From assembly GCF_900105255.1 (NCBI RefSeq), contig NZ_LT629763.1, positions 744,001 through 808,000 on the forward strand: a stretch of 64,000 nucleotides of DNA. The letters run 5' to 3'. The translations under genes were made by a program, and so were the position numbers. This document shows, piece after piece, positions 2,005 to 13,361 of this stretch. The first letter of the stretch is position 1; each line of letters opens with the position of its first letter. The notes beneath the pieces are model-generated. The model saw only the letters and a list, made by a program, of their open reading frames with translations. It had not been told where the DNA came from and made no database searches. The stretch comes from Halopseudomonas sabulinigri (GTDB taxonomy: Bacteria > Pseudomonadota > Gammaproteobacteria > Pseudomonadales > Pseudomonadaceae).

Positions 2005-2826
2005 ATGCCGCAGATCAGACTCAATGGCTGCCAGTTTCATTACACCGATCAAGGCAGCGGGCCCCCGCTATTGCTGTTGCATGGGCTGGGGTCGAGCGAG
2101 CGCGACTGGGAATACCAGATTCCCGCATTGACCCCGCACTACCGGGTGTTGTGTCTCGATAGCCGTGGCCACGGACAGAGCGAGAAAGGCGGCGCCGGTT
2201 ACTCGATAGCCCTGTTTGCTGCTGATTGCCTGGCATTCATCGAAGCACTGAAATTGGAAAAGCCACACATTGTCGGCCTCTCCATGGGCGGCATGATCGC
2301 CTTTCAACTGGCGGTCAACTCGCCGCAGATCCCGGCCAGCCTGACCATCGTCAACAGCGCGCCGGAGGTCATTCCACGCAAGCCAAAAGAATACTGGATG
2401 GCCGGCAAGCGGCTGTTTTTTGCCCATGTGTTGCCGATGCGCGCCATCGCTGGCGGGCTAGGCAAGTTGCTGTTCCCCAAGCCGGAGCAGCAGCATCACC
2501 GCGATACCTTTCAGGCGCGCTGGAACGAGAACCACCGCGCCAGCTATCTGGCCTCGCTGCGCGCCATTGTCGGTTGGGGCGTGAGCGCCCAGCTGGATCG
2601 CATCGCCTGCCCGGTCCTTGTCGTCAGTGCGGACCAGGATTACACGCCAGTGGAACAAAAGCGCGAGTATGTCAGTCGATTGGGCGATGCCAGACTGGAA
2701 GTCGTCGACGATTCACGGCACGCTACACCGGTTGACCAACCCGAGGCCTTCAATGCGCTGCTGCTGTCGTTTCTGCAGGAAGTGGACGCCGAACGGACCC
2801 TGACCCACGAAGTAGATCCTGCCTGA
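2005..2826 (+). CDS. Alpha/beta-fold hydrolase
   Basis: About 273 residues. ATG 2005 (MPQIRLNG) is preferred over ATG 1996 because CAGGGA lies nine bases upstream of it; the two differ by three residues. The fold is clear: an oxyanion loop LLHGLGSSERDW, a nucleophile elbow GLSMGG with Ser93, an acid in VVSADQDYTP and a catalytic His in DDSRHATP. This layout matches the esterase, lactonase and 3-oxoadipate enol-lactonase group (SRGHGQSEKG). There is no signal peptide, so it is cytosolic. The substrate cannot be read from sequence. It is followed after 24 bp by ppiA on the same strand. Confidence 0.9.
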   Translation: MPQIRLNGCQFHYTDQGSGPPLLLLHGLGSSERDWEYQIPALTPHYRVLCLDSRGHGQSEKGGAGYSIALFAADCLAFIEALKLEKPHIVGLSMGGMIAFQLAVNSPQIPASLTIVNSAPEVIPRKPKEYWMAGKRLFFAHVLPMRAIAGGLGKLLFPKPEQQHHRDTFQARWNENHRASYLASLRAIVGWGVSAQLDRIACPVLVVSADQDYTPVEQKREYVSRLGDARLEVVDDSRHATPVDQPEAFNALLLSFLQEVDAERTLTHEVDPA

Positions 2827-2850
2827 GCAGGACTCTGAATAACGGAGTAA

Positions 2851-3414
2851 ATGATGCTGAAACACCTTATTGGCGCTGCCACCCTGATGCTGCTGAGCTG
2901 CACCGCACTGGCCGACAGCCCCCGCGTGCAACTCTCGACCTCGCTCGGCGATATCGTACTGGAGCTTAACGAAGAAAAAGCCCCGATCAGCGTGGCCAAC
3001 TTTCTGCGCTATGTGGAATCCGGGCATTACGACGGTGTGATTTTTCACCGCGTCATACCCGGCTTCATGATCCAGACCGGCGGCTTTGAAGAAAATATGC
3101 GCCAGCGTGACGTCGGCAAGCCGATCAAGAACGAGGCCGACAATGGACTGGACAACAACCGCTATACCATCGCCATGGCGCGCACCGGTGTGGTCGACAG
3201 CGCCACCAGCCAGTTCTTCATCAACCTGGGCAATAACGATTTTCTGAACCACGGTGGCCGCGACTTTGGTTACGCGGTGTTCGGCAAGGTGGTCAGCGGT
3301 GAAGGCGTAGTTGAAACCATCGGTAAAGTCGCCACCACCAGCAAGGGCGGCCACTCCGATGTGCCGGTCAATCCGGTCACCATCCTCAGCGCCAAGGTAT
3401 TGGACGCGGAATAA
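2851..3414 (+). CDS. ppiA: Periplasmic peptidyl-prolyl cis-trans isomerase A (cyclophilin)
   Basis: A 187-residue protein with a signal peptide (residues 1 to about 22, ending CTALA) and a complete bacterial cyclophilin domain. Key stretches are [16 protein letters not shown] (catalytic Arg and Phe), [18 protein letters not shown] and [14 protein letters not shown]. It catalyses proline isomerisation during folding of exported proteins. Translation begins at ATG 2851 behind GGAG, with an alternative ATG three bases on. It probably shares a transcript with the hydrolase upstream. It converges with the next gene, leaving only 10 bp between stops. Confidence 0.95.
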
Positions 3415-3424
3415 ACACGCTCGC

Positions 3425-4549
3425 TCAGGTTGCCTGCCGGAATGGCAGGTAACCTGTAGACTCCTGCTGGTAAGCCCTCACCCCGGCGCGCTCGCGCTGC
3501 AGAAACTCCGCCACCGCCTCGTGCAGCCCTGGCTGCAGTTTGTGCCAAGACTGCGTCAGTACCGGCTCAAAGCCGCGCACCAGTTTATGCTCGCCCTGCG
3601 CGCCGGCATCAAAGCGTTTCAGCCCCTCGGCAATACACCTATCCATGCCCTGGTAGAAACAGGTCTCGAAATGCAGCCGATCAAATTCCTCCAGGCAGCC
3701 CCAATAACGCCCGTAGAGCGTGTCGTCACCGACCAGAAAGAGCGCTCCGGCTACGTCCCGTCCGTCCTGCCGCGCAAACACCAGGCGCACAGCGTCGCTC
3801 AGCCCGGCTGACAGCTGGCTGAAAAAAGCGCGACTGAGATAGGGTTGCTGGCCGCGCTTGAGATAGGTCGCGGCGTAGAACGGGAAAAAACGCTCCCAGT
3901 GCGCCTCGCTTATTTCAATGCCCTGATGCCATTCAAAGGTGATGCCTTGCACCACCACCGACTGACGCTCCTTGCGAAAATTCTTGCGCTTGCGCGAACT
4001 GCACTCAGCCAGAAAGTCATCAAAGCTGCGGTAGTCACGGTTGAACCAGTGAAATTGGCAGCCCAGCCGTTGCTCCCACCCGGCCTGCTGCAACAAGGGG
4101 CTCTGCGCATCATCGTTGAACAGCAAATTGACGCCCGATACCAGGCCGCGCTCCAGGGTGTCATTCAGCGCCTGCACTATCAGCTGCTGGCTGGCCGTGC
4201 AGCGGCCCAGCAAACGCGGCCCCTGCACCGGCGAGAAGGGCACCGCGGCCAGTAGCTTGGGGTAATAGTTCTGCCCTGCTCGCTCCCAGGCCTCGGCCCA
4301 CTGCCAGTCGAACACGTACTCACCGTAGGAATGCATCTTCTGGTAGAGCGGCAAGAGTGCCTGCAGGCTACCGTCGCTGTTCTCAACGATCAGATGCGCC
4401 GGCAGCCAGCCGGTGCCTTCCCCAACCGAACCGCTGCGCTCCAGAGCGGCCAGAAAAGCATGGCGCAAAAACGGATAGCTACCAGGCAACAGAGCGTCCC
4501 ACTGGCTGGCGTCGACCTGGTCAATCTGCGTAAGCTGGCGTAGCTTCAT
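3425..4549 (-). CDS. FemAB-like / GNAT acyltransferase (DUF482 family)
   Basis: A 374-residue protein matching the family once called DUF482 and now grouped with FemAB-like GNAT-fold enzymes. Typical segments are YPFLRHAFLAALERSGSV near the N-terminus, YGEYVFDWQWAEAWERAG, the SSRKRKNFRKER basic patch, and GRYWGCLEEFDRLHFETC followed by KRFDAGAQGEHKLVRGF near the C-terminus. The biochemical role is not settled in the family; transfer of an aminoacyl or acyl group is inferred from the fold. It is read from ATG 4549, divergent from ada, with no strong Shine-Dalgarno. No signal peptide is seen. Confidence 0.82.
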   Translation of the reverse strand: MKLRQLTQIDQVDASQWDALLPGSYPFLRHAFLAALERSGSVGEGTGWLPAHLIVENSDGSLQALLPLYQKMHSYGEYVFDWQWAEAWERAGQNYYPKLLAAVPFSPVQGPRLLGRCTASQQLIVQALNDTLERGLVSGVNLLFNDDAQSPLLQQAGWEQRLGCQFHWFNRDYRSFDDFLAECSSRKRKNFRKERQSVVVQGITFEWHQGIEISEAHWERFFPFYAATYLKRGQQPYLSRAFFSQLSAGLSDAVRLVFARQDGRDVAGALFLVGDDTLYGRYWGCLEEFDRLHFETCFYQGMDRCIAEGLKRFDAGAQGEHKLVRGFEPVLTQSWHKLQPGLHEAVAEFLQRERAGVRAYQQESTGYLPFRQAT

Positions 4550-6773: not shown

Positions 6774-6826
6774 GGCAGCGCTCCATACTCAGAAAAGTGA
6801 TCGGGCCCAAGCGCTGCCACTTTTTT
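6774..6826 (+). terminator. Rho-independent terminator of ada-alkA
   Basis: GGCAGCGCT (6774-6782) and AGCGCTGCC (6810-6818) form a perfect 9-bp stem, followed after two bases by six T on the plus strand, 18 bp after the alkA stop. The 27-nt loop is unusually long. Confidence 0.7.
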
Positions 6827-6833
6827 ATCGGGC

Positions 6834-6859
6834 AAAAAAAACCCCACCGAAGTGGGGTT
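6834..6859 (-). terminator. Rho-independent terminator of the porin gene
   Basis: Read on the minus strand: ACCCCAC, loop TTCG, GTGGGGT, then seven T. The stable tetraloop and T-run sit just after the porin stop at 6892, back to back with the alkA terminator. Confidence 0.9.
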
Positions 6860-6891
6860 CAAATCAGGAGCAGATCTTTGTTGCTAACAGC

Positions 6892-8157
6892 TTAGAACGC
6901 GTACTGCAGACGGGCAGAGATGGCGTCGCCGCTGTCGTCTACGCCAGCACCGTTGTAAGACGGATCGCTGGTTTCAGCCATGATGTAGTCCAGCATGACC
7001 TTGACGTTGTTGTTGGCGTACCAGTTCACACCCAGGGTGTGAGTCTGTGCGTCAGTGCTGCCAAAGCCGGATTCTTCAGCTTCGATATCGTCGTAGCGGT
7101 AAACCACTTCCCAGGCACCCATGCGCGAGTTGGACGGCTTGACCGCGTCAAACTTGCCCAGCTTGTAGCCGCGCGCTTCGCCAGTGATGGTCCAGGCCAG
7201 TTGTGCGTTGTAACCGGTGGCTTCACGATCGCCGCGACCAGAACCGCTCTGAGCGTCGATGTTGACCCGCATGTATTCGCTCTGGATCGAGAAAGGACCA
7301 GCTGCGAAGGCGGCTTCCAGGCCCCAGGCAGTGTCGTTCTCGTAAGCGTCAGCCACTCCGCCGGTGTCGAAAGGACGGCCGTTGGCGTTGGCAGAAGTAT
7401 CTTCAGTAACACCGCGAACGTTCAGACGTGAACGCAGACGGCCGTCGCTGTTGTCGGTGCCGCGGTCGGCGTAATTGATACCGAAGTGCAGTACGTTGCC
7501 CGCTTCGTGCATCGGGGCGAATACGGCACGCAGGTTCATCTGAACGTCGTCCTGACCGTCTTCGTCGTTAGAGTCTTCAGGCTGATTCAGACCAGCAGAA
7601 CCGTAGAAGCTGTCAGCCAATTTGGCTTGCAGCTGGATGCCCATGCCGTTGTCACGATCGTTGACCCAGCTGGCCAGATCATAGATGGACGAGCGCTCGA
7701 TGGTGGTGATCCACTTGGAGCTGGTGGCTTTTTCCAAACCGAAATCGGGGTCAAAACGACCGACCTTGATGCTGACCGGCTTCCAGCCAGTGTAGGCAAT
7801 GGAGGCTTCATCCCAATCACCGCCGCCTGCTTCGTTGGCAAAGTTGTAGTTCAGGGTGTACTGCCAGTCAGTGAACGCGTAGCCAGACAGTTCCAGAATG
7901 GCGCGGCGGAAGTAAGCTTCGTTGGCAGCGTTGCCGTTGCGAGTGTACAGACCGTCGAAGCTGTCGTAGTCAGCTTGCAGACGACCGCCCAACTTGAAAC
8001 CGAAAGACTTGTCAGAGGCGTCGAGGGTCAGGCCACTCTTGGTGCCCAGTACCAGATCGGAACCATCGGTAGTCACGGTACCGGCTACGGCTTGCATGGA
8101 TACAGCGGCTGCCAGGGCGCTGATAGCGAATCCGGCAAGTTGCTTACGCAGTGTCAT
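6892..8157 (-). CDS. Outer-membrane porin of the OprP/OprO (phosphate-selective) family
   Basis: The start is ATG 8157 (MTLRKQLAGF) with GAGGGAAG upstream; the open frame continues 20 codons further without support. The 421-residue precursor has a signal peptide of about 26 residues ending QAVAG. The mature chain consists of short alternating beta strands (FGFKLGGRLQADYDSFDG, QYTLNYNFAN, LGVNWYANNNVKVMLDYI) and ends in the terminal Phe (ARLQYAF) recognised by the outer-membrane assembly machinery. OprP-like trimers conduct phosphate or polyphosphate; whether this copy is phosphate-selective cannot be told from sequence. A possible PhoB box lies upstream. Confidence 0.88.
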   Translation of the reverse strand: MTLRKQLAGFAISALAAAVSMQAVAGTVTTDGSDLVLGTKSGLTLDASDKSFGFKLGGRLQADYDSFDGLYTRNGNAANEAYFRRAILELSGYAFTDWQYTLNYNFANEAGGGDWDEASIAYTGWKPVSIKVGRFDPDFGLEKATSSKWITTIERSSIYDLASWVNDRDNGMGIQLQAKLADSFYGSAGLNQPEDSNDEDGQDDVQMNLRAVFAPMHEAGNVLHFGINYADRGTDNSDGRLRSRLNVRGVTEDTSANANGRPFDTGGVADAYENDTAWGLEAAFAAGPFSIQSEYMRVNIDAQSGSGRGDREATGYNAQLAWTITGEARGYKLGKFDAVKPSNSRMGAWEVVYRYDDIEAEESGFGSTDAQTHTLGVNWYANNNVKVMLDYIMAETSDPSYNGAGVDDSGDAISARLQYAF

Positions 8158-8265
8158 TGAGTCTTCCCTCATTTGTGTTTTTGCGTTGACAGTGAAACAA
8201 CACATTTGGGCCGCCATGTGGCATCAGGCCCGGTGTTGGAGGGAATCTTGGCAGCGCTATATTTC

Positions 8266-8300
8266 ATATCAGTTGCGCGAAGATGAACATTCGATGACAG
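8266..8300 (-). promoter_or_regulatory. Candidate PhoB box and -10 element for the porin
   Basis: On the minus strand CTGTCAT, four bases, then TGTTCAT (8300-8283) resembles the paired 7-bp Pho box repeats; the first repeat is perfect and the second matches at four of seven positions. TGATAT (8271-8266), 11 bases on, could be the -10. This fits an OprP-type porin but is a weak match. Confidence 0.35.
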
Positions 8301-8306
8301 AGGAAC

Positions 8307-8346
8307 TTTTTACCGCAACCTGGGCTCGCGCAGGTTGCGGTAAAAA
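8307..8346 (-). terminator. Strong hairpin after the MNIO operon
   Basis: The arms TTTTTACCGCAACCTG (8307-8322) and CAGGTTGCGGTAAAAA (8331-8346) are perfectly complementary around an 8-nt loop. The hairpin lies about 60 bp after the DUF2063 stop on the minus strand. The flanking A and T runs let it end transcription in either direction. It sits directly next to the candidate porin promoter and may insulate it. Confidence 0.8.
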
Positions 8347-8404
8347 AGAGCAGAAGAGGAATATCGCTAAATCAGTAAGATAGGAAAACAATCCAGAATT
8401 ATTG

Positions 8405-9163
8405 TCAGCTAGGTTTTACGTCACCGGGCAGCAGGATGTCGTCGGTAAACCAGGCGTTCAAAAGCTGCAGCCCGTTGCCGAGAAAAACGTGGTCGCAGGC
8501 TAATCCGCATTGCGCGGCTACCTTGGTCAGCAACTTCTCGATGCGCTGCGCGCCGCTATCCAGTTCAGCCAGCAACTGATAAGTGAAGGCCGTCAGCTGC
8601 ATAAAACGCACCTTGTCGTGGCGGTCGCGCCAGACCAGCAGCCAGGTCGGTTGCTCCGGCCTGTTGCGCGGCTGAAAATTCACGCCAATTCGATGCACTG
8701 GCCATTCATACGCATGGGCACACACCAGCGGCGATACCTGAACACTGCTCTGCAGACTCAACGTGCTGCCCTGCTCTGCCGCGCCTGGCAGCTCAGCGCA
8801 GGCGGTATCCAGCGCGAGCTCCAGCCATTCGTAATGCGCCAGCTCCAGCAGATATGGAGGGTCATCCGCTTGCGCACGATAACCTTGTTGCAGCCACTGG
8901 ATGAATTCTTGCCCGATCTCCAGAAAGTACGGCGAGCGGCAGTGATGCTCGGCAATAAAATCGGTTACCAGCTCGCGCCAGCGCGGCGCCGGTAACAGGC
9001 TATGCACTACCGGGAAGGTTCCGCGCACGAAGCTTTCTATGCTTTGGTAAAACAACCGCTCGTACACCGCCACGCGTGCGGGCGGCACACCCTCAGGCAA
9101 GGCGGCGCGCTCGGGCGCGCGCACCCTGGCGGCAAAACCGCGTTGCTGATCGACCGCGCTCAT
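8405..9163 (-). CDS. hvfC: HvfC/BufC-type partner protein (DUF2063)
   Basis: A 252-residue protein whose N-terminal half matches the DUF2063 'putative DNA-binding' family: RVAVYERLFYQSIESFVRGTFPVVHSLL, then LVTDFIAEHHCRSPYFLEIGQEFIQWL and a domain break near residue 110. The C-terminal half continues with YEWLELALDTA. In characterised MNIO systems this protein is not a regulator: it forms a complex with the DUF692 enzyme and helps bind the precursor peptide. Its ATG overlaps the stop of the DUF692 gene (ATGA), so the two are probably made in equal amounts. It is the last gene of the operon. Confidence 0.9.
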   Translation of the reverse strand: MSAVDQQRGFAARVRAPERAALPEGVPPARVAVYERLFYQSIESFVRGTFPVVHSLLPAPRWRELVTDFIAEHHCRSPYFLEIGQEFIQWLQQGYRAQADDPPYLLELAHYEWLELALDTACAELPGAAEQGSTLSLQSSVQVSPLVCAHAYEWPVHRIGVNFQPRNRPEQPTWLLVWRDRHDKVRFMQLTAFTYQLLAELDSGAQRIEKLLTKVAAQCGLACDHVFLGNGLQLLNAWFTDDILLPGDVKPS

Positions 9164-10008
9164 GCGCGCAGCGCCTGCGGCGCGGCGGCTCGTTGCAGCG
9201 TGCGAATATGCTCGACCTCCGCGTAGAGTTCCGCCAAGGGAGGAAAGTTGAAGTCGCGCTCCAGCAAGGTGGGCCTGACACCGTGCTGCCGGTAAGCCAA
9301 TTGCAGCAATTGCCAGACCGGATCGATGACAGCGGCGCCGTGGCTGTCGATTTTCAGGTCCGGCTCGGCATCGAAGTGACCGGCTACATGCATGTAGGCA
9401 ATACGTTCACTGGGCATGGCACGGATATATTGCTCGGCATCGGTGGCAAAGTTGATGCTGTTGACCAGCACGTTGTTGACGTCCAGCAGCAACTGGCAAT
9501 CGGCCTCCTGCAATACCGCGTTGACGAAGCCAGGCTCATCCAGTTCGCCCGGAAAGCAGACGTAGGCCGACACGTTTTCAATGATCAAGGGCCTTTCCAG
9601 CGCGTCTTCAACCTGTTTGATACGCGCCGCTATACGCCGCACGGTGTCGTCGGTAAAAGGCACAGGCATGAGATCGTAGAGCTGACCGTCATCGGCGCAG
9701 GCCGACAGGTGCTCGCTATAAACATCGATGTGGTGAGTATCAAGAAACTGCTTTATATCGCCCAGCAGGCGCTGATCCAGCGGCGCCAGGCCGCCCAGGT
9801 TGAGCGACAGGCCGTGACAGGCGAAGGAGTAGCGCTCAGTTAGCGCACGAAACTGGCGGCCAAAGCGACCGCCCAGATTGATCCAGTTTTCCGGCGCTAC
9901 TTCAAGAAAGTCGGCCCCGGATACCGGGCCGGCATTGATCTCATTCAGCAGACTGCGGCGCAGACCCAGGCCTGCGCCCTGCACGCCGAAAGCGTGGGGA
10001 ATCGTCAT
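9160..10008 (-). CDS. hvfB: MNIO-family iron enzyme (DUF692), HvfB/BufB type
   Basis: A 282-residue TIM-barrel enzyme of the multinuclear non-heme iron-dependent oxidase family (DUF692; MbnB, TglH, HvfB, BufB). Expected metal-ligand neighbourhoods are all present in order: FACHGLSLNLGG, DVYSEHLS, LIIENVSAY, LLLDVNNVLVNS, AYMHVAGH, IDSHG and LLERDFNFPP. Members oxidise cysteine residues of ribosomal precursor peptides to heterocycles. It begins only 3 bp after the precursor gene stops and overlaps its partner downstream, so the substrate is very likely the EGKCGEG protein encoded just before it. No frameshift or missing block is seen. Confidence 0.93.
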   Translation of the reverse strand: MTIPHAFGVQGAGLGLRRSLLNEINAGPVSGADFLEVAPENWINLGGRFGRQFRALTERYSFACHGLSLNLGGLAPLDQRLLGDIKQFLDTHHIDVYSEHLSACADDGQLYDLMPVPFTDDTVRRIAARIKQVEDALERPLIIENVSAYVCFPGELDEPGFVNAVLQEADCQLLLDVNNVLVNSINFATDAEQYIRAMPSERIAYMHVAGHFDAEPDLKIDSHGAAVIDPVWQLLQLAYRQHGVRPTLLERDFNFPPLAELYAEVEHIRTLQRAAAPQALRA

Positions 10009-10011
10009 TGC

Positions 10012-10254
10012 TCAGCTACCGCAAGTGCCTTCACCGCACTTGCCTTCGCGTTCGCCCTTGCTCTCGCCCTTGTCTTCGCCACAGCTGCCCTCGCCGCACT
10101 TGCCTTCCATGTCACCTTCGCCATGGTTGTCGGCCAGGTTATAGCCACTTTGCAGCTCTTCTACGGCAAACGGATTGTCTGCAGCGTTGACGCTGGCGCC
10201 AGCGCCCATCAGCGTTACGCCCAGAGTAACGATAGCGGTATTGAGTTTGTTCAT
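10012..10254 (-). CDS. hvfA: Secreted cysteine-containing precursor with two EGKCGEG motifs (HvfA/bufferin-like)
   Basis: The start is ATG 10254 (MNKLNTAIVT) with GGAG upstream; a TTG two codons earlier is not needed. The 80-residue product has a signal peptide to about residue 24 (SVNA), a short linker (FAVEELQSGYNLADNH), then a Gly/Glu/Lys-rich tail in which EGKCGEGSCGE (50-60) and EGKCGEGTCGS (70-80) repeat with 20-residue spacing. The four cysteines are 53, 58, 73 and 78, all in these motifs. In HvfA-type proteins the EGKCG cysteine is modified by the MNIO enzyme, and the products are linked to copper binding. That this copy is modified is inference from the adjacent hvfBC pair. Confidence 0.9.
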   Translation of the reverse strand: MNKLNTAIVTLGVTLMGAGASVNAADNPFAVEELQSGYNLADNHGEGDMEGKCGEGSCGEDKGESKGEREGKCGEGTCGS

Positions 10255-10302
10255 GGTCAATCTCCATTTTGTAATGAGGACAGGAACTGCCCTCTCACCA
10301 AA

Positions 10303-10331
10303 CTAGACCAGGCTCGGTCGCTACGGTTACA
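10303..10331 (-). promoter_or_regulatory. Candidate ECF sigma promoter for the hvfABC genes
   Basis: On the minus strand TGTAACC (10331-10325), a spacer of exactly 16 bases, then GTCTAG (10308-10303). This has the form of a group-specific ECF promoter; TGTAACC is the -35 known for SigF/SigE-type ECF factors that control bufferin-like operons in other proteobacteria. Transcription would begin near 10296, about 42 nt before the precursor ATG. An A/T-only stretch (10331-10350) lies just upstream and could act as an UP element. Confidence 0.62.
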
Positions 10332-10358
10332 AAAAAGTGATTTTTTTCTTCGCGGCGG

Positions 10359-10619
10359 TTATTGCGGGCCATCGTGATCGGCTGCGGCGCCCTTCTTCCG
10401 CTGCTGTGCAGCCATGGCACGCAGCAGGGTATCTAGCTCTGCAACAGGAGCATCCGGCAGTTGGCGAATCACCCGCTGGCTGACTCGCAGTTGGCGAATA
10501 AAACGGCGACAACGAAAGCAGATTGCCAGGTGCGCACGCACGGAAATGCGCTGCCGCAGGCTCAACTCGCCATCCAGCAGGTCACTGGACTGTGCCACCA
10601 GATCCCTACACGTCAACAT
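10359..10619 (-). CDS. Zinc-binding anti-sigma factor (zf-HC2 type)
   Basis: An 86-residue soluble protein with the H-x3-C-x2-C signature (His30, Cys34, Cys37 in AHLAICFRCRRF) and an additional Cys4. These are the usual features of a ZAS-domain anti-sigma factor, which holds its sigma factor inactive until zinc release or thiol oxidation. There is no membrane segment, so sensing would be cytoplasmic. ATG 10619 overlaps the end of the sigma gene by 7 bp, strong evidence that they are partners. The signal sensed is unknown; metal or redox stress is likely from the operon content. Confidence 0.87.
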   Translation of the reverse strand: MLTCRDLVAQSSDLLDGELSLRQRISVRAHLAICFRCRRFIRQLRVSQRVIRQLPDAPVAELDTLLRAMAAQQRKKGAAADHDGPQ

Positions 10620-11215
10620 TCGCCGGTTACCTCAAAATGCTCCAAAGTCGCAAAAACGCTCAAGCGTGCACGGTGCAACAACACTCGAACATTAGAGTGC
10701 GATATGTCGAGCAGGTTACAGATTTCTTCCAATTCGAGGCATTGGCGGTCGCGCAACAGCAATACGCTGCGCTGCAATTCCGACAGGCTACTGAGGGTGT
10801 GTTCCAGACAATCACGCAGCTCCTGCGCATCCAGCAGCGCTTCGGGAGAGTCGCTGTGCCACCCGGCAGGGCCTTGCTGCCAATGGCCGTCCGGTTGGAA
10901 GCGATCGTTGTCTATGCTGCCGTGCGGGCCGCGAAGGTCATCGATAAACACTTCGCGGCGCTGTTTTTTCAGGCGGGTCTTGGCGGTATTGGCGGTAATG
11001 GTCAGCAACCAGGTCTTGAGACTGGAGCGCTCGGCAAAACCGTCGATATTGCGCACCACCGCAAGCCAGCTGTCCTGTACCACCTCGTCGGCGCTACTGC
11101 TGCCGACGATAGCGATGGCGACGGCGCGCATAGCCCCCTGATACTGCGTAACCAGGGCGGCGTAGGCCGCCTGGTGGCCGGCGCGCAACCCGGCGAGCAA
11201 TTGCTCTTCAGTCAC
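10613..11215 (-). CDS. ECF RNA polymerase sigma factor
   Basis: The protein has region 2 (ALVTQYQGAMRAVAIAI, then VVQDSWLAVVRNIDGFAE and LKTWLLTITANTAKTRLKKQ) and region 4 (LSELQRSVLLLRDRQ, LELEEICNLLDISHSNVRVL). I place the start at GTG 11215 (MTEEQLLAGLRAGH), giving 200 residues and the usual N-terminal length; GTG 11269 would add 18 residues and overlap the FabH-like gene. Neither has a clear Shine-Dalgarno. The linker between the two regions is long, about 45 residues. It lies 31 bp after the FabH-like gene and probably shares that transcript. The hvfA promoter is the likely target. Confidence 0.9.
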   Translation of the reverse strand: MTEEQLLAGLRAGHQAAYAALVTQYQGAMRAVAIAIVGSSSADEVVQDSWLAVVRNIDGFAERSSLKTWLLTITANTAKTRLKKQRREVFIDDLRGPHGSIDNDRFQPDGHWQQGPAGWHSDSPEALLDAQELRDCLEHTLSSLSELQRSVLLLRDRQCLELEEICNLLDISHSNVRVLLHRARLSVFATLEHFEVTGEC

Positions 11216-11246
11216 CGGCGCAGCAGCCGCGCAGTGGGCAGTGGCA

Positions 11247-12368
11247 TCAGTGCTTGCGTACCACGACACTGCCGATGGAGTAACCGGCGCCGAACGAGCA
11301 GATCACCCCGTGGCTGCCCACGGGCAGATCGGCCTGATTCTGGTGGAACGCGATGATCGAGCCGGCTGAGCTGGTATTGGCGTACTTGTCGAGTACCACC
11401 GGTGCCTCCTCGGCACTTGGGTCACGCCCCAGCAGCTTGCGCGCAATCAGCATGTTCATGTTCAGGTTGGCCTGATGTAGCCAGAAGCGCTTGATGTCTT
11501 CTACGTTCAGTCCTACTTCCTGCAGATGGTTGCCAATCAGCTCGGCCACCATGGGGCAAACGTCACGGAATACCTTGCGACCATTCTGTACAAAAAGTTT
11601 GTCTGGCTTACCGACGCCCTCCTCGTCACAGCGGTTAAGGAAGCCGAAGTTGTTGCGGATGTTGTTGGAGAACTTGGTCAGCAGCTTGGTGCCGAGAATC
11701 TCGTAGGGGTGCTCGCAAACCGCCTGGTCGGCGCGTTCTATCACCACGGCGGTGCAGGCATCACCAAAGATGAAATGGCTGTCACGGTCACGGAAGCTCA
11801 TGTGCCCGGTGCAAACTTCCGGGTTGACCATAAGCACCGCCCGGGCCTGGCCCAGTTGCACGGCGCTGACCGCGTTCTGAATACCAAAGGTGGCAGACGA
11901 ACAGGCGACGTTCATGTCGAAGCCAAAACCTTCGATGCCTAGCGCTTCCTGCACTTCAACCGCCAGCGCGGGATAGCCTCGTGGCAGATTGGAGCAAGCG
12001 ACGATCACGGCGTCGATATCGGCGGCCGTGCGACCGGCCGCTTCAAGCGCCTGATGCGCGGCCTTGACGGCCATTTCGCAGAGCAGCGAAGGCTCATCGT
12101 TACTGCGCTCGGGAATATCCGGAACCATGCGGTTAACGTCTAGAATGCCGCTCTTGTTCATCACATAGCGGCTTTTGATGCCGGAAGCTTTTTCGATGAA
12201 CTCGGTACTGGAGCCGGCCAGCGGCTCAACGGTACCGGCTTCGATAGCGGCGGCGTTGTCGGCATTAAACTGCGCGACATAGGTATTGAAGCTTTCCACC
12301 AGCTCTTCGTTGCTGATGCTTTCTGTGGGGGTGTACAAACCTGTTCCGCTGATCACGACTTTGTGCAC
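11247..12368 (-). CDS. Beta-ketoacyl-ACP synthase III-like enzyme (FabH2/PA3286 type)
   Basis: The start is GTG 12368 (MHKVVISGTG) behind AGAGGA; an ATG six codons earlier has no advantage. The 373-residue protein is about 55 longer than E. coli FabH, mainly from an insert after residue 30. The catalytic triad is intact: Cys156 in NVACSSATFG, His298 in WLHQANLN and Asn331 in YANTSSAG. The closest type I recall is PA3286 of P. aeruginosa, which condenses medium-chain acyl-CoA with malonyl-ACP and so feeds beta-oxidation products into fatty acid synthesis. Nearby fadD1, fadD2 and phaJ-like genes fit that role. Confidence 0.9.
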   Translation of the reverse strand: MHKVVISGTGLYTPTESISNEELVESFNTYVAQFNADNAAAIEAGTVEPLAGSSTEFIEKASGIKSRYVMNKSGILDVNRMVPDIPERSNDEPSLLCEMAVKAAHQALEAAGRTAADIDAVIVACSNLPRGYPALAVEVQEALGIEGFGFDMNVACSSATFGIQNAVSAVQLGQARAVLMVNPEVCTGHMSFRDRDSHFIFGDACTAVVIERADQAVCEHPYEILGTKLLTKFSNNIRNNFGFLNRCDEEGVGKPDKLFVQNGRKVFRDVCPMVAELIGNHLQEVGLNVEDIKRFWLHQANLNMNMLIARKLLGRDPSAEEAPVVLDKYANTSSAGSIIAFHQNQADLPVGSHGVICSFGAGYSIGSVVVRKH

Positions 12369-12444
12369 GGTCGGTCCTCTTCTCATGTTATGGACGCGGT
12401 CTACTGCACGCCGGCGCGTTACAACCAGTAAACCACTCTACTTT

Positions 12445-12476
12445 TCAGATACTAATCAGCTATGCGTCAGATACTA
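12445..12476. repeat. Direct repeat upstream of the FabH-like gene
   Basis: TCAGATACTA occurs twice, at 12445-12454 and 12467-12476. The copies are 22 bp apart, two helical turns, on the same face of the DNA. They lie upstream of the minus-strand FabH-like start at 12368, and the second overlaps the stop of the next hydrolase gene. They could be tandem half-sites of a regulator. Confidence 0.5.
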
Positions 12477-13361
12477 GCGCAGGTGTTGCTCAAGCCAACT
12501 CAATACCAGCGGAAAATGATCGACCTCCGCCTGCGGGTGAGTCAGCAGATCATTGTGGCCGTAGCGCCGAGAACAACCCTGGCCCTTCTGCAACAGGACA
12601 ATCTGCGCGTCGTGTGGGCCCAGCTCGCGGGCAAAGTCACGAACATCGCCGATATGCCCCTGTTGACGATCCGTTTCGCCGGCAAGATACAAACTTGGCG
12701 GCCACGCCAGCTCCGCTATCGCGCTAGCATAGTCGAATCCATCCTCAAGATCACGCCATTCACCGCGCATCCAGGCCAGATTGGCTGCATAGATGGCAGT
12801 GGATTCATCCGCGGACCCCAGCGCCATGGCGCGGGCCGGAATCAGGCCCTTGGCGTGGCCGAGCAGCGGCAGCAGGCGCCGCCAGAACAGCGCACTGGCG
12901 AAGCGGGTAAACAGGCCGCCATGCCGCTGCCCTCGGCGCACGGCAAACTGCAGCAGACCAGCGATCCCTGCCAGTAAATCCGGGCGGCGAATCAGCGCGC
13001 TGGCCAACCAAACACCGCCCCAGCCATGGCCGCCGGCAAACAGCGGTTGTTGCCGATGGCGTTCCTGCAGTAGCGCCAGCGCGGCTGGCAAATCTTCGGT
13101 AATCACTCGGTGCTGGGTAACCTCAGCCGCCGCGTCCTGCAGCCTGGGTTGACTCGCGCCATGACCGCGCAAATCGAGCACATAAACGCTGTGCCCTGCT
13201 GCCGTCAGCACGCCCACCAGGCCTTGGTCTCTCCGCGGGTGGAACACCCTGCCGTCTTCCAGCGCGCCGTGTACCAGCAGAACCACGGCGCGCTGCGGCG
13301 ACCCGGCAAAGCAGCGCAGTTGCAGCTCGACCGAGTCCAGATTCAGACTGAGCCTTTCCAT
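12474..13361 (-). CDS. Alpha/beta-fold hydrolase
   Basis: The start is set at ATG 13361 (MERLSLNLDS). GTG 13376, with a better AAAGGATG upstream, would add five residues; longer frames run inside hrpA. The product has about 295 residues. LLVHGALEDGRVF is the oxyanion loop and VLDLRGHGASQ follows. The nucleophile elbow reads GGHGWGG, with His where most family members have Ser or Asp, so ordinary esterase chemistry is doubtful. A C-terminal His is in RRYGHNDLL. Substrate unknown. The gene follows hrpA closely and is probably co-transcribed. Confidence 0.8.
   Translation of the reverse strand: MERLSLNLDSVELQLRCFAGSPQRAVVLLVHGALEDGRVFHPRRDQGLVGVLTAAGHSVYVLDLRGHGASQPRLQDAAAEVTQHRVITEDLPAALALLQERHRQQPLFAGGHGWGGVWLASALIRRPDLLAGIAGLLQFAVRRGQRHGGLFTRFASALFWRRLLPLLGHAKGLIPARAMALGSADESTAIYAANLAWMRGEWRDLEDGFDYASAIAELAWPPSLYLAGETDRQQGHIGDVRDFARELGPHDAQIVLLQKGQGCSRRYGHNDLLTHPQAEVDHFPLVLSWLEQHLR

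Follow-up and report, generated by a model that had tools for sequence, protein, structure and literature searches.

Among described systems, the one whose arrangement comes closest to the locus treated here is that of Neisseria, in which NGO1944 (an extracytoplasmic function, or ECF, sigma factor), NGO1945 (DUF2063), NGO1946 (DUF692), NGO1947 (a periplasmic protein) and NGO1948 (DoxX) are possibly co-transcribed (PMC2954202). In N. meningitidis, MseR, a zinc-binding anti-sigma (ZAS) factor, has been described as the repressor of sigma-E, a sigma factor reported in the same paper to respond neither to peroxide nor to diamide or singlet oxygen (PMC2893595). For the EGKCG thiooxazole peptides, both the inducer and the role of the DoxX partner are stated as open in the available text of two reports (PMC13097082, PMC13419390). 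The present locus, hvfABC, lies in a 64,000-nt stretch of Halopseudomonas sabulinigri (NZ_LT629763.1, positions 744,001 to 808,000), referred to as the window, in whose numbering gene coordinates are given unless stated otherwise. It is an operon of a known kind, since Neisseria has such a close arrangement, and the layout of its regulation is new. As judged from its sequence, hvfABC is very likely read by the adjoining ECF sigma factor, and so is a single partner gene far from it.

The initial annotation had placed five genes on one strand with overlaps or short gaps, and the rechecked coordinates agree, all of these genes being on the minus strand. The sigma factor gene (10613..11269) overlaps by 7 bp the gene of a soluble, 86-residue anti-sigma factor of the ZAS type (10359..10619), followed by the genes of an 80-residue hvfA-like precursor (10012..10254), of HvfB (9160..10008), a DUF692 multinuclear non-heme iron (MNIO) enzyme, and of its RRE-type partner HvfC (8405..9163), which carries a DUF2063 and an NGO1945 C-terminal domain; precursor and HvfB genes are separated by 3 bp, and those of HvfB and HvfC overlap by 4 bp. 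Curated models, synteny and a conserved promoter all support the reading of this locus as an MNIO operon of the HvfABC type that is accompanied by an ECF sigma factor and a ZAS anti-sigma factor. HvfB reaches 404.5 bits against NF003818 (cut-off 360; family-model E 2.1e-121), matches the Pfam family MbnB_TglH_ChrH and aligns with PDB 3bww (E 2.4e-65), while HvfC reaches 277.4 bits against NF050145 (cut-off 142; E 1.2e-82), matches DUF2063 and NGO1945_C in Pfam and aligns with PDB 3dee (E 4.8e-12). The best named HvfB matches come from Halopseudomonas sabulinigri (82%) and Pseudomonas neustonica (81%), the gene order of the operon recurs in relatives, and the genome, a single contig of 4.03 Mb, contains one HvfB match at E 0.001. 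By these family assignments the system is of the HvfABC (EGKCG, oxazolin/captophorin) type and, by analogy with its relatives, probably modifies the cysteines of a secreted metal-binding peptide. Two other classes were considered and rejected: a Buf1 bufferin (DUF2282), the precursor having no Pfam match and the BufB model giving 246.9 bits (cut-off 310), and methanobactin, for which the MbnB equivalog model gives 46.3 bits (cut-off 325).

The sigma factor matches Pfam Sigma70_r2 (52.1 bits) and Sigma70_r4_2 (45.2 bits) as well as NCBIfam sigma70-ECF (81.1 bits, cut-off 42.9). Its reading frame comprises 218 residues when counted from the first GTG (11269); the start originally chosen (11215, also GTG, 200 residues) is not the first one but fits several relatives better, among them L003 and L016, whose frame allows no more than 201 residues. 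The anti-sigma factor scores 37.1 bits against Pfam zf-HC2 (cut-off 22.2) and 55 against NCBIfam antisigmaE (cut-off 50). The H-x3-C-x2-C motif first noted in it is confirmed by residue positions (H30, C34, C37) and extends with C4 to C-x25-H-x3-C-x2-C, which falls within the ZAS definition C/H-x23-26-H-x3-C-x2-C (PMC7907618); the ZAS pattern recurs in 62 of 64 loci (species duplicates counted). The protein has no membrane-like stretch (best 19-residue hydropathy 0.51), and a PDB search returned no match at E 0.001, with RsiW at 0.056. In Halopseudomonas pachastrellae (L029, 4381-4640) the anti-sigma frame is broken around the H-x3-C-x2-C motif, and L005 (genome G012) has the same sequence there, while the sigma and hvfABC frames of both match over their full length; barring a fault of assembly, nothing should hold back the sigma factor in these strains.

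The distribution of these genes was compared across 248 genomes of the Pseudomonadaceae and 37 of the genus; among the genus loci and the 80 loci with an HvfB relative, some species occur twice. HvfB above the NCBIfam cut-off occurs in 76 of the 248 genomes, and its identity to the window protein is two-humped, being at least 68% in 31 genomes (the window type) and at most 60% in the other matches listed; in the genus, 9 of the 37 genomes have HvfB at 69% identity or more. A sigma orthologue at E 1e-40 or better is present in 101 of the 248, 97 of these being strong. A strong sigma orthologue is present in all 31 genomes with window-type HvfB, compared with 97 of the whole set of 248 (hypergeometric 7e-15, phylogeny ignored), and in 22 of the 31 the two genes lie no more than 4 kb apart on one strand, 17 of them within 1.2 kb. 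Sigma and HvfB distances are correlated both in linked loci (r 0.86, n = 20) and in unlinked ones (r 0.81, n = 8), with 0 of 2000 permutations in each case and four duplicates (L002, L003, L005, L008) left out, as expected for joint vertical descent. Among the fetched stretches of the 80 HvfB-relative loci, the only sigma match outside Pseudomonas and Halopseudomonas is L068, from a Methylococcales metagenome-assembled genome, in which a diverged ECF sigma factor, a ZAS-like anti-sigma factor and an EGKCG-like precursor stand in a row (2547-3665), with HvfB about 1.3 kb further on.

The predicted ECF promoter of hvfABC (10304..10331, minus strand) lies between the regulators and the operon and reads TGTAAC (10326-10331)-N16-GGTCTA (10304-10309), 49 nt before the ATG of the precursor gene. 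In relatives, the region upstream of hvfA yields the consensus TGTAA[CT]-N16-NGTC[TC]A at 45-59 nt from the start codon. Counting distinct sequences under a second rule for choosing the start codon, which regained L017, L022 and L163, such a site precedes 25 of 27 hvfA genes of the window's precursor type, whether or not a sigma gene is near; the two misses are L034 (TGTAAC-N16-ACTCTA) and L067, which falls outside the family. No site appeared in 27,000 mononucleotide shuffles. A larger count that keeps species duplicates gives the promoter in 22 of 23 linked loci and in 12 of 65 others, the remaining 53 hvfA upstream regions having none; all 34 sites have a spacer of 16 nt even though 14-19 were allowed. 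It is also kept in the eight genomes tested, out of nine, in which window-type HvfB is unlinked to the sigma gene, and in all nine hvf genomes of the genus. The window holds a single match, with 0.10 expected when one mismatch is allowed, and the strict pattern TGTAAC-N15..17-SGTCTA matches once in the 4.03-Mb genome, at hvfA, its reversed-pattern control matching twice. The consensus reported for Neisseria sigma-E is GTMAGBWTT, 12-13 nt, CGTCTAAH (PMC2893595); counted from GTAA, its 17-18 nt to CGTCTA equal the spacing found here within one base.

The probable distant partner is a doxX gene. It had been noted that no DoxX gene follows the operon, which holds for the window, where none stands after hvfC; however, a homologue exists elsewhere in the genome, so that the operon is not self-contained, its usual DoxX partner lying about 645 kb away with a matching promoter. 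Searched with the DoxX protein that L034 encodes in its operon, the genome yields this single match (72% identical, genome position 1,398,978), which is flanked by pyruvate-kinase-like and fumarase-like genes, as read by eye from the open reading frames. In nine linked Pseudomonas loci in which hvf comes close behind the anti-sigma gene (L023-L028, L030, L031, L034), hvfC is followed by a gene belonging to one and the same homology cluster, whose L034 member, the only one tested, encodes a DoxX protein (Pfam 78.3 bits). In Halopseudomonas-clade loci L015, L016, L021 and L029, the named linked loci of that clade with enough flank (the stretches of L017 and L019 stop before the end of hvf), hvfC is followed by a porin-like gene with no gene of the DoxX cluster between. 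At E 1e-40 or better, doxX is present in 6 of the 37 genus genomes, all of them among the nine with hvf (hypergeometric 3.6e-5, phylogeny ignored). All six have TGTAAC-N16-[AC]GTC[TC]T upstream of the gene, the version in the window's genome being TGTAAC-N16-AGTCTT, and the relaxed pattern TGTAAC-N16-NGTCYW has exactly two sites in that genome, at hvfA and at doxX. From the matching promoter and the homology to the gene that follows hvfC in Pseudomonas it follows that the apparently missing doxX is probably co-regulated with hvfABC in trans.

Of the 36 further genomes of the genus, 27 were surveyed for the relaxed pattern (8 having hvf and 19 without the window type), the nine left out being mostly less complete; the hvfA and doxX sites of the relatives had been seen beforehand, and only the genome-wide counts are new. 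The eight hvf genomes have 28 sites, which comprise hvfA in 8 of 8, doxX in all five that possess it and 15 others, and the 19 genomes without window-type hvf have 15 sites. When 30 loci out of these 43 sites were read for open frames, 21 of the 25 sites other than hvfA and doxX fell within an open frame of at least 200 codons, a weak criterion, as some hvfA and doxX sites do so too or lie in shorter frames. A near-identical further match (TGTAACCGTCGAACAGGATRCGTGTCTT) occurs in three hvf relatives (L209, L221 and G023:C272:15847-15874); in the two loci read, the TGTAACCGTCGAACAGGATRCGTGTCTT site lies in an open frame of more than 280 codons.

Several observations weigh against a common regulon of this kind. 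With regard to doxX, 3 of the 9 hvf genomes of the genus have no such gene, its frame is broken near the start in one of the six (G012), and in five of the six upstream regions TGTAA overlaps the stop codon of pyk, so that it is partly constrained by coding, whereas it is intergenic in the window's genome. The relaxed pattern was drawn up with both sites already in view, and because of the 15 further sites in the eight hvf genomes an exact two-site regulon is not general. The reversed control even exceeds the pattern (11 versus 2 in the window's genome, 110 versus 28 in the hvf genomes and 213 versus 15 in the others), and with more matches than the pattern itself it is an unmatched estimate of chance. 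With regard to the sigma factor, 30 of the 97 genomes with a strong orthologue have no HvfB above the cut-off, and neither of two forms of the motif was found at any of 40 unlinked or sigma-only sigma loci, which implies other targets or another promoter form there.

These 40 fetched loci without an adjacent complete hvf operon (20 with HvfB elsewhere, 20 with none above the cut-off) also qualify the view that the sigma and anti-sigma factors are the operon's own. In every one of them the gene of a beta-ketoacyl-ACP synthase III (KAS III) stands directly upstream of the sigma/anti-sigma pair, and because this trio is present in all 40, the regulator pair is not exclusive to hvf and is wider than its use beside hvf. 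The pair thus belongs to a wider KAS III unit, found also in genomes without hvf, and KAS III is probably its older partner. It could accordingly be argued that the sigma factor is a mere old neighbour, that it serves KAS III in fatty-acid or envelope physiology and that transcription from the hvfA and doxX promoters depends on a different ECF sigma factor with a similar motif, as the conserved trio, the motif-free sigma loci and the 9 of 31 window-type HvfB genomes in which the operon is unlinked to the sigma gene would suggest. However, the presence of a sigma orthologue in every genome with window-type HvfB, its position within 4 kb of HvfB in 22 of them and the similar motif read by the MseR-controlled sigma-E of the homologous Neisseria operon (PMC2893595, PMC2954202) make this alternative unlikely. 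That the sigma gene might control itself by this motif was considered and rejected, with 0 of the 40 loci carrying it and the only genome sites being those of hvfA and doxX. In 20 sigma genomes without window-type hvf (11 without HvfB above the cut-off, 9 with another HvfB type), two have one strict site each. These sites, in L186 and L187 (genomes G073 and G133, with sigma and no HvfB above the cut-off), are an identical TGTAAC-N16-CGTCTA, possibly an alternative target of the sigma factor. Next to the anti-sigma gene of L177, an HvfC-like piece (2886-3506) with no HvfA or HvfB match in the fetched 8 kb is apparently the remnant of a lost, once-linked hvf operon.

The precursor has a signal-peptide-like N-terminus, in which the most hydrophobic 19-residue stretch starts at residue 7 (hydropathy 1.51) and an AxA-like site was seen by eye only; it also has a NPFAVEELQSGY motif and two cassettes. 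The initial annotation was exact in describing two EGKCGEG[ST]CG motifs with a 20-residue period, EGKCGEGSCG at 50-59 and EGKCGEGTCG at 70-79, which place the cysteines at positions 53, 58, 73 and 78. Calling this tail minimal is fair, but it is not unique, as cysteine numbers range from 3 to 7 among 27 distinct precursors of this type, the lowest count being that of L002 and L015, and in the wider relative set the precursor of L087 has 2. The suggested comparison with HvfA and BufA models had a divided outcome: the precursor matches KCGExKCG_twice (NF050137, 28.7 bits, cut-off 19.5; E 7.8e-07) but falls below the HvfA equivalog NF050188 (22.3 bits, cut-off 95) and matches no Pfam family, DUF2282 included. 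No convincing second EGKCG precursor was found in the genome, where the other matches reach only E 0.23 and 0.43. It has been reported that FonBC modifies a two-repeat substrate, though not a one-repeat one, and tolerates threonine at position 3, that of the lysine (PMC13097082); because FonBC accepts two repeats and threonine, the two-cassette precursor with serine and threonine is, by analogy, a plausible complete substrate.

It might also be supposed that the four-cysteine precursor is the decaying remnant of a longer one, in a system that is losing its function in Halopseudomonas. Low cysteine numbers such as the three of L002 and L015, a doxX gene outside the operon, the broken anti-sigma frame of H. 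pachastrellae and doxX frame of G012, and the 28 of 37 genus genomes without HvfB of this identity would fit such a history. On the other hand, the reading frames of the window are intact, comparison with L016 gives 28 synonymous-only codon changes against 14 residue changes in 80 codons with all four cysteines kept, the promoter is retained in all nine hvf genomes of the genus, and two repeats suffice for FonBC (PMC13097082), so that decay appears highly improbable.

The explanation that best accounts for these data, and that we hold with considerable confidence, is a stress-inducible regulon for a thiooxazole metallophore of the captophorin/oxazolin type. In such a regulon the cytoplasmic ZAS factor would, as in its family, hold the ECF sigma factor until its thiols are oxidised or its zinc is displaced, with hypochlorite-like oxidants or Cu(I) as possible agents. 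The sigma factor thus freed would then read TGTAAC-N16-GGTCTA to transcribe hvfABC and, acting in trans, TGTAAC-N16-AGTCTT to transcribe doxX, a recognition suggested by the conservation of the sites. As in homologous systems, HvfB and HvfC would oxidise up to four precursor cysteines to 5-thiooxazoles before export by the Sec pathway, and, in what is the weakest step of the scheme, the exported peptide would bind Cu(I) and with membrane-bound DoxX shield the envelope from copper or oxidants. For this organism the modification chemistry, the inducing signal and the recognition of the promoters by the sigma factor are all inferred.

Whether copper is the main concern of such a regulon is less certain, and protection against copper, as first proposed, does not carry over readily to the EGKCG type, since a Microbulbifer homologue is not induced by copper and its authors hesitate over a copper-protective role (PMC12538549). 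A main role in defence against hypochlorite or other reactive species of oxygen or chlorine, the thiooxazoles binding copper as a secondary property, would be compatible with the assignment of operon and regulon. It would fit this Microbulbifer result, the induction by HOCl and H2O2 of Haemophilus rpoE2, which encodes a sigma factor kept in check by the ZAS protein HrsE (PMC7907618), and the control of MsrAB by the Neisseria sigma factor (PMC2893595). In contrast, EGKCG products made in E. coli bind copper (PMC13097082), bufferins enhance growth under copper stress (PMC12452194) and a Haemophilus rpoE2 deletion strain showed wild-type oxidant resistance in vitro (PMC7907618), and oxidant defence as the main job therefore stands as a tentative proposal with something to commend it.

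A more far-reaching version of the metallophore regulon, for which we consider the arguments evenly balanced, is that hvfABC and the unlinked doxX make up nearly the whole of a private, two-promoter sigma regulon, with a zinc anti-sigma switch conserved across the Pseudomonadaceae and DoxX as an obligate partner. If this is true, doxX moved out of the operon and yet stayed under its control, and a sigma factor perhaps belonging to ECF293, a group filed under transcriptional control, would be under a zinc anti-sigma switch. Since a single genome here names a likely regulator, its promoter and two likely targets, the inducer, the chemistry and the role of DoxX can be separated by single deletions, and the split layout makes both the trigger and the partner protein easy to test.

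As to the surroundings of the operon, the KAS III gene of the window (11247..12386, minus strand) is of the PRK07515 type (NCBIfam NF005703, 658.6 bits, cut-off 304), and a phosphate-selective porin O/P gene (6892-8217; Pfam 286.4 bits) comes after hvfC. Of the 40 loci without adjacent hvf, 24 likewise have porin-like clusters, recognised by eye, no more than 4.5 kb beyond the anti-sigma gene. Between hvfC and the porin gene, at 8307-8346, stands an inverted repeat of 19 nt, its arms 95% complementary and 2 nt apart, with a T run at one outer end and an A run at the other, possibly a two-way transcript end or a regulator site. Within 6800-12600 no sigma-70-type promoter was found (2.0 expected), and the six intrinsic terminators found there against 5.4 expected are uninformative.

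PA3285 of Pseudomonas aeruginosa lies beside the KAS III gene PA3286 and near oprO/oprP. Judging by this gene order, the window sigma factor is possibly the orthologue of PA3285 (ECF293). If so, its conserved ZAS partner would change the view of how ECF293 is controlled: a review places certain ECF293 members under transcriptional regulation, PA3285 under that by PvdS (PMC8999054), whereas in the family loci examined here the gene of a ZAS anti-sigma factor overlaps that of the sigma factor.

Among the better described relatives, the HvfABC-HvfX (oxazolin) system of Haemophilus influenzae shares with the window HvfA, HvfB and HvfC homologues, an exported precursor and EGKCGEGKCG-like cassettes; however, its HvfA has six cysteines in three AEGKCGEGKCG motifs and its operon includes the DoxX-like HvfX (PMC13419390), whereas the window has four cysteines, serine or threonine in place of the second lysine, and an operon that lacks doxX. 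Fontiphorin (FonABC) and other captophorins likewise combine an MNIO enzyme and a DUF2063 partner with EGKCG repeats, FonA having seven modified sites, and the available text mentions no ECF/ZAS pair for FonABC (PMC13097082). Buf1 bufferin operons resemble the window in that sigma genes adjoin an operon whose MNIO enzyme belongs to the same superfamily, but they encode a DUF2282 precursor and an NrsF anti-sigma factor instead of an EGKCG precursor and a soluble ZAS factor; the accessible part of this survey of the MNIO landscape reports sigma/NrsF genes with Buf1 clusters, and no such genes are named there for the EGKCG ones (PMC12452194). We found no published description of a regulon of hvfABC and doxX in a literature covered in part, exclusive of supplementary tables (where one paper lists regulators). 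What is apparently new is a promoter that follows the regulator genes, a KAS III gene ahead of them, a doxX gene that is displaced yet apparently co-regulated, and a short four-cysteine precursor. The sigma-E/MseR operon of Neisseria (NMB2140-2145; NGO1944-1948, gonophorin) agrees with the window in ECF sigma factor, ZAS anti-sigma factor, DUF692, DUF2063, EGKCG peptide and DoxX, and its sigma-E promoter GTAA...CGTCTA is like that of hvfA in sequence and spacing. There, the sigma gene belongs to an autoregulated operon together with doxX, and MsrAB is a target; in the window, in contrast, the promoter comes after the regulators, doxX lies about 645 kb away, KAS III stands before the sigma gene and hvfA alone has the strict motif. 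Because the two promoters are equivalent, the comparison suggests that one old ECF/ZAS stress circuit may drive EGKCG peptides in beta- and gammaproteobacteria alike.

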